Source: Myxococcales bacterium (GTDB lineage Bacteria; Myxococcota_A; UBA9160; UBA4427). From it: a DNA stretch of 36,745 nucleotides. Positions 8,224-12,008 of this stretch are shown piece after piece; position 1 is the first letter of the stretch; the number at the start of each line of letters is the position of its first letter. The notes beneath the pieces were generated by a model. The model did not search any database. It worked only from the letters and a program-made list of their open reading frames with translations, and was not told the origin of the DNA. The stretch is from assembly GCA_012959665.1 (NCBI GenBank), contig DUCT01000249.1:1-36745 (forward strand), in the 5' to 3' direction. The position numbers were made by a program, and so were the translations under genes.

Positions 8224-9126
8224 TCAGCGGACTCGCTCCTGAATCTGCCTTCGCCAGTAGGCCAGCAACTCCGAGAGGAGCCCTTCCAAGGAATGCGAGG
8301 CCTGCCAGCCTGTGGCTCTCTTCAGGCGTTCGGAATCGCCCACTCGAGCATCGGCGGGTCGCCAGCGTTTTTCGTCGCGCTCGATCTCGGGGGTAACTCC
8401 CGCGAGTCGAGCCAGGCTTTCTAGAAGGTTCCCGATGCGGGTGCCCACACCGCTGGCGATATTGTAGGTATCGGCCGGGACGGCCCGGTCCAGTAGCCGG
8501 ATGTAAGCGTCCACGACGTCGTCGACGTGGAGGAAGTCGCGAACACTGTCGAGATTACCGACGCGCATGGTCGGGGGATTGCCGGCCTCGATGAGCGCGA
8601 TCTGGCGGGCGAAGTCCGGCGCGACGAAGATCGGGGCTTGGCCGGGACCCGTGTGATTGAAGGCCCGAATCGTCACGACGTCCAAGCCGCGCCCTGCGGC
8701 TTCGAGGCCCAGACGTTCGGCGGCTGCCTTGGTCTCCGCATAGACACCTTGGGGCTCAAGGCGCGCGGCTTCGGTGAGCGCTGGCGCTCCGGGTTCCACC
8801 GGGGCGTATTGCTCGCTGGAGCCCACGAGCAGCAGGCGCGCTTCGGGGGCGTCGCGCTCGAGCGCTTCAATGACATTTTGCGTGCCCTGGACGTTGACGC
8901 GATGGGCCAGATTCGGGTCCCGGGAGGCCGCGGGAACGAAGGCCACTGCCGCCAGGTGGACCACCGCGTCCGGAGTGGCTTTCTCGACTACACCCCGAAC
9001 CATCGAGGCATCGCTGACATCGACGGAATCGACGTCGAATCCCGTTACCCGATGGCCGGCGGCCTCCAGGCGCGGAATGAGCCGGGTTCCCACAAACCCG
9101 CGCGAGCCGCTGACAAGGATTCTCAT
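8224..9126 (-). CDS. NAD(P)-dependent sugar epimerase/reductase, GDP-4-keto-6-deoxymannose reductase-like
   Basis: This is a short-chain dehydrogenase/epimerase of about 300 residues. The nucleotide-binding Rossmann motif is SGSRGFVG at the N-terminus. The catalytic residues are in SSEQY and YAETK. Residues RAFNHTGPGQAP, FVAPDFARQIALIE and VGNLDSVRDFLHVDDVV closely follow the Rmd type, which reduces GDP-4-keto-6-deoxy-mannose to GDP-rhamnose during surface polysaccharide synthesis. I chose ATG 9126 because the Rossmann strand begins there. A GTG at 9144 would add six residues, and neither start has a strong ribosome binding site. No GDP-mannose 4,6-dehydratase gene lies next to it, so the substrate is inferred from similarity only. 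The next gene starts divergently 86 bases away. Confidence 0.82.
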   Translation of the reverse strand: MRILVSGSRGFVGTRLIPRLEAAGHRVTGFDVDSVDVSDASMVRGVVEKATPDAVVHLAAVAFVPAASRDPNLAHRVNVQGTQNVIEALERDAPEARLLLVGSSEQYAPVEPGAPALTEAARLEPQGVYAETKAAAERLGLEAAGRGLDVVTIRAFNHTGPGQAPIFVAPDFARQIALIEAGNPPTMRVGNLDSVRDFLHVDDVVDAYIRLLDRAVPADTYNIASGVGTRIGNLLESLARLAGVTPEIERDEKRWRPADARVGDSERLKRATGWQASHSLEGLLSELLAYWRRQIQERVR

Positions 9127-9212
9127 TGGGGCGCAGCGTTCCACAGGAAACCATTGGGCGCAAACGCCGACCCGGAGGCAGGCTGCTACCTTTGGCCCTC
9201 AACGGGGGGCTT

Positions 9213-10217
9213 ATGATTATCGGTGTGAGTGGACGCAATGGGGCAGGGAAGGGCGCTGTCGTCGAGTTCCTGGCCGAGCGCAGCTTCTATGTATTTTCTC
9301 TGTCCGACGTGGTTCGCGACGAGTTGAAACGCCAAGGGGTCGATGAGACCCGGGAGCGAATGATCGAGGCCGGTCGTGGGCTGAGAGAGCGCCGAGGGCC
9401 CGGAGCCCTTGCCGAAGGACTGATCTCGCAGCTGTTGCCCGATCGGAATTACGTCATCGATTCGATTCGGCATCCCGCCGAGGTCGAGGCCTTGCGCCGG
9501 TTCTCGCCGGAGTTTCGGCTCGTCTGGGTGGACGCCAGCGAAACACGTCGGTTTGAGCGGATCCGTCAACGCGGCCGCCCGGGTGACCCCACGGACATCG
9601 AGGCATTGCGGGCCTTGGAGGCGCGCGAACTGAGCAACGCTGACGTGGCGGGTCAGCAACTCCTGGCGGTGGAAGAGATGGCCGATTTCGTCGTGCCCAA
9701 CGAAGCGGGCTTCGAAGAATTGCATCGGGCAGTTCGGGAGGTCTTTCGTGAGAGCCTTTTTTTTGAGCGGCCGACCTGGGACCAATATTTCATGAGCATC
9801 GCCCAGGTCGTGGCCTCCCGAAGCAATTGTGTGAAGCGCAAGGTTGCGGCGGTGGTGACGCGAGATCGCCGGATCGTTTCTACGGGTTACAACGGTACGC
9901 CTCGCGGGACTCGGAACTGCAACGAGGGGGGTTGTCCTCGTTGCAACGATCTCGCGCCGGGGGGGACCGGGTTGCTCGATTGTCTTTGCTCCCACGGCGA
10001 GGAAAACGCAATCACCCAGGCCTCCTACCACGGGGCAAGCCTTCGGGACGCCACGCTCTACACCACATTTTCCCCGTGCCTGCAGTGCACCAAGATGATC
10101 ATCAACTCCGGACTCAGCGAGGTGGTCTACAATTCGGGCTACCCCCTCGGGGATAGATCACTTGAGTTGCTCCAGGAGGCGGGTGTAAAACTCCGAAAAG
10201 TGGGCCCAACGGCCTGA
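9213..10217 (+). CDS. P-loop kinase-like / dCMP (dCTP) deaminase fusion
   Basis: The 334-residue product has two domains. Residues 1-180 resemble a nucleotide or dephospho-CoA kinase: P-loop GRNGAGKG (7-14), VIDSIRHPAEVEAL and a lid-like region VDASETRRFERIRQRG. Residues 188-334 are a zinc-dependent deoxycytidylate deaminase. The markers are STGYNGTPRG, a cysteine-rich insert NCNEGGCPRCND, the zinc/catalytic HGEEN (His261, Glu263) and SPCLQC (Cys289, Cys292). The expected reaction is dCMP to dUMP, feeding dTMP synthesis. The common HAE is HGE here. The same arrangement of kinase-like and deaminase domains is known in fungal Dcd1 and in anti-phage dCTP deaminases. I chose ATG 9213, just before the P-loop strand, because upstream codons overlap the divergent reductase gene and look non-coding. 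Confidence 0.85.
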   Translation: MIIGVSGRNGAGKGAVVEFLAERSFYVFSLSDVVRDELKRQGVDETRERMIEAGRGLRERRGPGALAEGLISQLLPDRNYVIDSIRHPAEVEALRRFSPEFRLVWVDASETRRFERIRQRGRPGDPTDIEALRALEARELSNADVAGQQLLAVEEMADFVVPNEAGFEELHRAVREVFRESLFFERPTWDQYFMSIAQVVASRSNCVKRKVAAVVTRDRRIVSTGYNGTPRGTRNCNEGGCPRCNDLAPGGTGLLDCLCSHGEENAITQASYHGASLRDATLYTTFSPCLQCTKMIINSGLSEVVYNSGYPLGDRSLELLQEAGVKLRKVGPTA

Positions 10218-10337
10218 ATCCTGCCCCGGGCTCCGACTCATCCCACGCGCAGGAGCGATTCCCCTAAATCCTCGGACCCAAGAGGACGAAATGAGGGGAC
10301 GCGCAGGAATTTGTTCCGGCGCTCTTCGGAGGCGAGT

Positions 10338-12008
10338 GTGCGACCCAGGCCGGTACAACTCCTTGATCAGCGTGCGTTTCCTATCCTCTACGTCGATGAC
10401 GAGCCCGACAATCTTCGGGTGTTCGAGCTGACATTTCGGAGGGACTTTTCCGTTCTTACCGCGACCTCCGCCGATGAGGGGATGGAGATCCTGAACGCCA
10501 ATCCCGTCGCTGTGGTGCTCTCCGATCAACGTATGCCGGGTGTCACTGGGGTCGAATTTCTGTCCCGGGTTAGGGATCTGGACCCGGACACTCTGCGGAT
10601 CCTTGTGACGGCCTATGGCGACGCCGAAATTCTCGGAGATGCGATCAACGACGGCAGCATTTATCGCTACATCCCCAAGCCTTGGGAGCCCGAGGACATG
10701 CGGATCACCCTGCGTCGGGCGATCGAGGTCTATGCCCTCGAGCGCGAGCGCACCGCGCTTTTGCAGGAACTGAGCACGATCAATCGTCTCTCTCGCAATC
10801 TTCATCAGGAGACGGAGATGGGCCGCTTGGTGGATCTGCTGCTGAATTCGATACACAAGGATCTGGGTTTCGACGGTGGCGCGTTGTTCTTCTTCGACGA
10901 AACGGGCGACCACCTGGCTTGGAAGGGACTATTCCCGGCCGAATCCGAGGTTTCATCGCGCCTCAGGGAAATCGATTTCTGCCGACCTCAAGCCAGCAAT
11001 TTTATGGATCAGATTCTGCTCGGGCGCACCCAACATCTGTCGATCGCCGATGCCACGGACTACGAGGGACCGGTGCGGTCGTGGTTGACCGAGGTGTCCG
11101 CGGACGAGATTCTGATTGTGCCTCTGACGGGCAAGAAGGGTGTGATCGGTGCATTGGCGGTGGACAATCGTTCGGGCAGTCGCCGGTTTGTGCCTGAGGA
11201 CTCGGGCCTTTTGGACGGCCTGGCAACCCAGGCCGTGATTGCCCTGGAAAACGCTCGTCTGGTCCAGGCACTGAGGGAATCACGCGCCCAAGTCCAACGA
11301 GCGGATCGGCTGGGTACCTTGGGCACACTGGCTGCCGGACTGGCGCACGAGATCAACAATCCCCTGGTTTCGGTGAATACTTTTTTGAACCTGGTCCCCG
11401 AGATGCGAAACCAGTCCGATGAATCATTTTGGGTTGAGTACCACCGGTTGGCTCTCGGCGAACTCGATCGTATCCGGGGCTTGGTGGGCACCATGTCCAG
11501 ACTGGGTGGGTCCGAAGGAGGCAGTGAGCCGTCACTCTGCCAGCCCGTGAATCTGGCCGAGGTGGTCCGTGAGGGGGCTCGCTTGATGGATCGACAGGTG
11601 GCCGGCGCCGGGGTGGACCTCGTGCTCAAAGTCGACGAAGAAGCCTCCGTGGTTCTGGGCGTACGAGATCAACTGCATCAGGTATTTCTCAACCTCGTAC
11701 TCAACGCCGTGGACGCGACGGAGCCAGGCGGGAGCGTCGAGGTGGAAGTGTCAAGGGATCCCTCAAATCCGGGCGAATGGGTGCTGATTCACTTTCGGGA
11801 CCATGGCCAGGGCATATCGCCCGAGCATCTGGAGCGGATATTTGACCCCTTCTTTACGACCAAGGGACCGAACAAGGGCAGCGGGCTCGGGTTGATGATT
11901 GTCCACCAGATCGTGTCCGAGCATGGCGGAAGCATCCAACTGAGCAGTGAATTGAGTGGCGGGACGATTTTTCAGGTTCGATTGCCGTTGGCCGGCGAAG
12001 CGGAATAG
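10338..12008 (+). CDS. soluble REC-GAF-histidine kinase
   Basis: This 556-residue signalling protein has no membrane segment. An N-terminal receiver (about 14-135) has the DDE acidic cluster, phosphoacceptor Asp63 in LSDQRMPG and Lys113 in YIPKPWEP, the pattern of RpfG/HD-GYP-type receivers. A GAF-like sensor domain (about 160-305) follows, ending in GALAVDNRSG and ATQAVIALENARL. The kinase has phosphoacceptor His337 in AAGLAHEINNP, an N-box VFLNLVLNAVDAT, and G-boxes DHGQGI and GSGLGLMIVHQI. GTG 10338 is chosen because GGAGG lies 5 bases upstream. The frame is also open from TTG 10311. The receiver in front suggests it is itself controlled by another kinase. No output regulator adjoins it on this strand. 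Confidence 0.9.
   Translation: MRPRPVQLLDQRAFPILYVDDEPDNLRVFELTFRRDFSVLTATSADEGMEILNANPVAVVLSDQRMPGVTGVEFLSRVRDLDPDTLRILVTAYGDAEILGDAINDGSIYRYIPKPWEPEDMRITLRRAIEVYALERERTALLQELSTINRLSRNLHQETEMGRLVDLLLNSIHKDLGFDGGALFFFDETGDHLAWKGLFPAESEVSSRLREIDFCRPQASNFMDQILLGRTQHLSIADATDYEGPVRSWLTEVSADEILIVPLTGKKGVIGALAVDNRSGSRRFVPEDSGLLDGLATQAVIALENARLVQALRESRAQVQRADRLGTLGTLAAGLAHEINNPLVSVNTFLNLVPEMRNQSDESFWVEYHRLALGELDRIRGLVGTMSRLGGSEGGSEPSLCQPVNLAEVVREGARLMDRQVAGAGVDLVLKVDEEASVVLGVRDQLHQVFLNLVLNAVDATEPGGSVEVEVSRDPSNPGEWVLIHFRDHGQGISPEHLERIFDPFFTTKGPNKGSGLGLMIVHQIVSEHGGSIQLSSELSGGTIFQVRLPLAGEAE

Follow-up and report, generated by a model that had tools for sequence, protein, structure and literature searches.

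A kinase–dCMP deaminase fusion of Myxococcota whose kinase half may stand in for canonical CMP kinase

INTRODUCTION

Fungal Dcd1 deaminases have an N-terminal extension, a Cys-rich insert and a degenerate P-loop, and dCMP deaminases in general are allosterically controlled. Free-standing dCMP deaminases (S. mutans 2hvw, T4 1vq2, human 2w4l, ComEB) lack a kinase half. PMC10733785 deals with the Dcd1 of Dictyostelium, a dCTP deaminase, rather than with fungal Dcd1. Anti-phage dCTP deaminases (NF041025, AvcD, DcdV) place a P-loop domain before the deaminase and carry HxE and PCxxC zinc motifs; AvcD acts on both dCTP and dCMP, as an excerpt of PMC10511110 states.

On the kinase side, an excerpt of PMC3603445 describes bacterial CMP kinase (Cmk) as near-universal in bacteria, as phosphorylating both CMP and dCMP, and as a proposed drug target. 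Cmk (PF02224, TIGR00017) is a member of the P-loop NMP kinase superfamily. To this fold also belongs the AdkA-related UPF0200 protein SSO1041 (3lw7, 3h0k), a stand-alone archaeal protein without a deaminase.

The window, by which we mean the whole stretch of 36,745 nucleotides analysed here, carries a gene that joins a kinase half to a deaminase half. The kinase half shares its fold with SSO1041, at 30% identity, and is proposed to carry out the (d)CMP plus ATP reaction of Cmk although it belongs to another sequence family. The deaminase half shares fold, zinc motif and GYNG motif with the free-standing dCMP deaminases but has in addition a GGCPRC/CxC Cys insert. Among open-licence PMC papers, searches on fused kinase–dCMP deaminases, UPF0200 and missing CMP kinase found nothing on this protein.

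RESULTS

One gene with two enzyme halves

The features of the gene are collected in Table 1. A scan of genome contigs gave 393 candidate stretches and 343 relatives, of which the best 80 are used below as the 80-locus set; alignment A1 has 61 members, 53–85% identical to the window protein. An in-frame TTG lies upstream at 9126, yet relatives begin at the residue equivalent to the ATG, which upholds the start as annotated. Pfam searches find AAA_18 over residues 3–123 (E 2e-8, above cut-off) and PF00383 over residues 188–306 (E 3e-24, 85.3 bits against a cut-off of 25).

In an AlphaFold model of the 334-aa fusion (pLDDT 89, pTM 0.70), both halves match solved structures in the PDB. Residues 1–182 of this predicted model align with the AMP-bound Sulfolobus AdkA-related protein 3lw7 (Z 22.7, rmsd 1.9, 167 residues aligned), and residues 185–334 with the S. 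mutans dCMP deaminase 2hvw (Z 22.2, rmsd 1.7, 142 aligned). The initial annotation had proposed a one-gene fusion, and at the level of predicted structure a P-loop kinase joined to a dCMP deaminase is confirmed: the N-terminal part does have a P-loop fold, and the gene does not begin at the deaminase domain.

Comparison with the nearest congener (G004) indicates purifying selection on the kinase half (dN/dS 0.10); the value for the deaminase half is 0.015, with dS near saturation. Among the best 80 of the 343 relatives, the closest named ones are Myxococcales/Myxococcota MAGs, at 81–90% identity.

Table 1. Position of the fusion gene, its motifs and its neighbours in the window
Feature	Coordinates	Strand	Remarks
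Divergent neighbour, NAD-dependent epimerase/dehydratase	8224..9144	-	PF01370 E 3.6e-48
Kinase–deaminase fusion gene	9213..10217	+	334 aa, stop included in coordinates; ATG 9213
Kinase half, residues 1–182, AdkA-like NMP-kinase fold	9213..9758	+	AAA_18/AAA_17; 3lw7 Z 22.7
Walker A GRNGAGKG, residues 7–14	9231..9254	+	G7, G12, K13 invariant in A1 (n=61)
SLSDVVR, residues 29–35, likely nucleoside monophosphate site	9297..9317	+	S29, L30, S31, R35 invariant (A1)
DSIR, residues 83–86, likely phosphate-binding Arg	9459..9470	+	D83, S84, R86 invariant (A1)
Lid arginines R113, R116, R120, R122	9549..9578	+	all invariant (A1)
Deaminase half, residues 185–334	9765..10214	+	PF00383 E 3e-24; 2hvw Z 22.2
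GYNGTPRG, residues 225–232, motif of dCMP deaminases	9885..9908	+	residues 225–231 invariant (A1)
NCNEGGCPRCN Cys insert, residues 235–245	9915..9947	+	C236, C241, C244 invariant (A1)
CLCSHGEEN, residues 257–265; catalytic H261, E263	9981..10007	+	C257, C259, H261, E263 invariant (A1); middle residue G/A
PCLQC, residues 288–292; catalytic zinc ligands Cys289, Cys292	10074..10088	+	P288, C289, C292 invariant (A1)
Downstream neighbour, response regulator-GAF-histidine kinase	10311..12008	+	

The deaminase half

We hold with high confidence that the C-terminal half is a dCMP deaminase. PF00383 scores above its cut-off and the HxE and PCxxC zinc ligands are in place, together with the GYNGTPRG motif, which we take to bind dCTP/dTTP. 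The nearest structures to the predicted model are dCMP deaminases (2hvw, Z 22.2; 5c2o, 20.8; 4p9c, 20.7), with the bifunctional dCMP/dCTP enzyme 7fh4 at Z 19.2. The score against the ComEB model TIGR02571 is 109.4 bits, below the curated cut-off of 219.45. Deaminase tree and predicted fold lean towards dCMP, rather than dCTP, as the substrate.

The NCNEGGCPRCN insert and CLCSHGEEN block noted in the initial annotation are read directly from the sequence, but its label ‘eukaryote-like’ is unneeded, since the pattern NC..GGC.RC...C.C.H.E is present in 79 loci of the prokaryotic 80-locus set (best 80 of 343) and the remaining locus is frame-broken. Judged by this pattern, the Cys insert is a hallmark of the fusion family, and together with C257 and C259 it likely forms a second, structural zinc site.

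Two further letters had been singled out, Gly in place of Ala in HAE and the GKG form of the P-loop. Both are present, and neither is an oddity. The best 80 of the 343 loci comprise 52 with HGEEN, 27 with HAEEN and one with a broken frame (L049), and on a tree of 38 fusions the Gly/Ala switch requires at least seven changes; in the same 80 loci the P-loop Lys is followed by Gly in 67, Thr in nine and Ser in four. As signs of odd chemistry HGE and GKG were both rejected, each being common within the fusion family.

The kinase half

The kinase half combines the SSO1041 fold of UPF0200 (Z 22.7 over 167 residues) with an intact P-loop, Walker A being read directly. We take SLSDVVR, by analogy, to be the likely nucleoside monophosphate site and the Arg of DSIR, again by analogy, as likely to bind phosphate. 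The lid arginines are retained in eight relatives that have the kinase half alone and partly missing from four defence proteins.

The score against NF006226 (PRK08356) is 72.7 bits, below the cut-off of 189, and that of the window protein against TIGR02173 is 15.4 bits (cut-off 102); the Cmk models PF02224 and TIGR00017 give no match to the protein at E≤1.

Comparison with anti-phage dCTP deaminases

The initial annotation took a metabolic role as its default and left an anti-phage one as an option. It was right that the domain order, P-loop domain then deaminase, is that of the anti-phage dCTP deaminases, and the PADLOC-DB model PDLC02373 (dCTPase) does match the window protein (193 bits, E 2e-57), which probably reflects the domains and order in common. 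Against the curated model for anti-phage dCTP deaminase, NF041025, the protein scores 131.6 bits, below the cut-off of 400. A deaminase tree with 58 rows puts the five defence rows in one clade (100/99) and the window protein among 38 fusions (92/79); we use only this defence/fusion separation, as the tree carries a long-branch warning among the free-standing deaminases.

The defence proteins differ in other respects. Their frames run to about 500–710 aa, their deaminases lie in another clade, and a canonical Walker A is present in none of the 35 examined (four from plasmids and a genome, 31 from viral contigs), but intact in all loci of the 80-locus set (best 80 of 343). The 31 come from 32 loci, the frame at L252 being too short; 19 of 51 viral loci lay outside the count as partial matches. 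One genome (G029) carries both the fusion and a separate, true NF041025 protein at 431 bits. The neighbours of the fusion, namely PrmA, the epimerase, the histidine kinase, an aminopeptidase and a phosphonate-binding protein, are housekeeping genes, as the initial annotation had said, and metabolism is better supported than defence. An anti-phage role was rejected on the NF041025 score, the genome carrying both proteins, the tree and Walker A, against the PADLOC match.

PDLC02373 thus matches a housekeeping gene, and defence screens that use it may overcount. Phage origin was also rejected: only two places among 50,697 phage records cover at least 80% of the query, at 24–25% identity. Viral contigs with a relative number 13, and only one of these (L171, residues 73–329) reaches well into the kinase half.

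Complementarity with canonical Cmk

The most interesting part of the case, missed by the initial annotation, is that the kinase half and Cmk are complementary. By absence of Cmk we mean absence of the canonical family, to which the CMP-kinase searches were confined. Among 40 relatives (own genome included), with all or nearly all candidates scored, TIGR00017 is above cut-off in none; the single match has an E-value of 7.7e-4, and all 14 controls were positive.

We then consider 151 genomes of the phylum, at least 85% complete except for the window's own at 80.5%, for which Cmk was called at E<1e-10 with the best 18 candidates per genome scored. Cmk without the kinase is found in 91, the kinase (fused or alone) without Cmk in 54, both in none, and neither in six, the last identified by elimination. 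The Fisher p-value for this exclusion, 1e-34, ignores shared ancestry, by which the complementarity can be inflated; the kinase occurs in twelve families among these genomes. Among the six, G132 holds a fusion broken by a contig end. The five others include some below 90% completeness, and G008, given as 98% complete, has no Cmk, no window-type kinase and no matching deaminase, so that it must rely on a different CMP kinase or do without one.

Thirty genomes were reached through the fusion loci L080–L110 without L085. They are all fusion-bearing, their completeness is not given, and most belong to other phyla, among them Acidobacteriota, Omnitrophota and Nitrospinota as well as Micrarchaeota bins. 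With all or nearly all candidates scored, Cmk is missing from 28 of them, clear in one (G192, which has both fusion and Cmk) and ambiguous in one (G178, 5e-5, partial). In G192, an Omnitrophica bin, the Cmk domain lies inside a giant protein (L221 1268-5998, G192:C154, frame of 4351 aa). A one-contig genome (G025) has the fusion and no Cmk, with an estimated completeness of just 68%. The full fusion also occurs in five bins labelled as Micrarchaeota (L087, L091, L098, L107, L108), where binning errors are possible; L087, L091 and L107 cluster in the deaminase tree (91/85).

Split and decayed genes

The 40 relatives (own genome included) comprise 26 with the full fusion, eight with the kinase half alone, two with the deaminase alone and four with nothing. 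The eight kinase-only genes end at about residue 180–200 and retain all 22 of the 22 invariant kinase residues, and dN/dS is 0.15 in the two close pairs measured. The epimerase family of the window locus is found at seven of the eight loci, and four (L141, L142, L146, L147) have the window's order of epimerase, kinase, response regulator/histidine kinase and next gene. In a kinase tree the kinase-only genes fall inside the fusions, which implies one or two losses of the deaminase half: those of the window's family, f1, occupy two places, and a single clade is compatible with the data (p-AU 0.27). All eight genomes encode, at another locus, a free-standing deaminase belonging to either of two other kinds. 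These replacement dCMP deaminases (L149–L158) have either HAE with WSKDPST or HSE with ANRSTC.

A further 14 stand-alone kinases also keep 22 of the 22 invariant residues, except for one with 21; their tree has a very long outgroup branch and unsettled bootstrap, and its rooting is unused. A possible deaminase remnant past the stop of the kinase-only gene of G005, with an alignment to residue 207, was too weak to claim.

Two genomes are the mirror image, with Cmk and the deaminase kept and the kinase half decayed. Both G120 and G144 have Cmk (E 5e-68 in G120; 6e-19, a partial match, in G144), and their deaminase, which shares 62% identity with that of the window, belongs to the fusion type. 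The N-terminal 125–140 residues have no kinase-profile match (E 0.25 and 0.83), and the P-loop is gone. Profile comparison still detects a kinase remnant in G120, with a score of 30.5 against a maximum of 19.6 over 30 shuffles; in G144 the signal hardly exceeds the shuffled maximum (20.7 against 18.6). In G120 the catalytic DSIR position aligns with LTGG.

Nucleotide pathway context

Thymidylate kinase (tmk) is present in 39 of the 40 relatives, and the kinase half was rejected as its substitute on that count. Within the window's genus, the dCTP deaminase Dcd is above cut-off in none of five genomes and dUTPase is found in four of the five, so the dUMP needed for thymidylate should come from dCMP. 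Twelve of the 40 relatives, same-order genomes within G026–G039, have a tandem double ThyX, with two PF02511 matches per open frame (for example G039:C206:25507-26862); ThyX is absent from family f1 among these relatives.

DISCUSSION

An intact AdkA-like kinase found just where Cmk is missing is best read as a Cmk stand-in. We give a probability of about 60% to the gene encoding a bifunctional (d)CMP kinase–dCMP deaminase whose kinase replaces Cmk. It would be a chromosomal housekeeping enzyme with both halves active. The C-terminal half would convert dCMP to dUMP, feeding dTTP synthesis, and the N-terminal half would be a nucleoside monophosphate kinase acting, most likely, on CMP and dCMP in place of Cmk. 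Running in reverse, from dCDP to dCMP, the kinase could feed the deaminase, and the fusion would couple two enzymes that have dCMP in common. From motifs, models and gene distribution we infer the catalytic activity itself, CMP and dCMP as the kinase substrates, the reverse step and whatever channelling there may be. The uncertainty lies in calling the kinase half a CMP/dCMP kinase: it matches no Cmk family, and its solved relative 3lw7 was crystallised with AMP. As a further counterpoint, some bacteria can live without Cmk: according to the excerpt of PMC3603445, B. subtilis and S. pneumoniae are reported to require it, whereas E. coli can dispense with it at a cost.

The kinase may instead be an active NMP kinase for another substrate (AMP, dTMP or several dNMPs), with Cmk lost for unrelated reasons or its role taken over by a different family. 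AMP in the closest solved relative would fit this, as would weak matches to the phage kinase families phrog_139 (dNMP kinase) and phrog_10255, and retention of the kinase as a stand-alone gene suits any useful kinase. We think this reading unlikely, though far from negligible, since it leaves unexplained why none of the 151 genomes has both proteins and 54 and 91 have one or the other, and why the kinase half has decayed in two genomes that bear Cmk; tmk is present anyway. It is improbable that the kinase half binds nucleotides for regulation and catalyses nothing, as the corresponding domain of the anti-phage proteins seems to do. The lack of a canonical Walker A in all 35 defence-type proteins does imply that the same domain can persist without one, and the allosteric control of dCMP deaminases would fit such a domain, but the P-loop Lys and lid arginines are invariant in A1 (n=61) and the kinase is kept at 22 of 22 residues in genomes without an attached deaminase. 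An anti-phage dCTP deaminase of the AvcD/DcdV type, suggested by the shared domain order and the PADLOC score, is very improbable given the low NF041025 score, the placement outside the defence clade, the housekeeping and syntenic setting and the genome that has both proteins.

Beyond the preferred reading as a (d)CMP kinase–dCMP deaminase, a broader scenario, to which we would give somewhat less than even odds, is that an AdkA-like kinase for (d)CMP, so far unrecognised, has displaced Cmk in several bacterial phyla. In most cases this kinase would be joined to dCMP deaminase, making a branch-point enzyme that works both ways (dCDP to dCMP to dUMP), and the anti-phage dCTP deaminases would derive from the same architecture after loss of kinase activity. 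With its Walker A missing, the ‘P-loop kinase’ portion of those defence proteins would seem to be a kinase that no longer works.

The distribution described here names lineages without Cmk together with a likely stand-in, which would fill a metabolic gap, and gives the AdkA-like/UPF0200 kinase family a testable function. It also tells a housekeeping fusion apart from look-alike anti-phage dCTP deaminases where one defence database model does not, the PADLOC dCTPase match being a trap that would mislead defence annotation.
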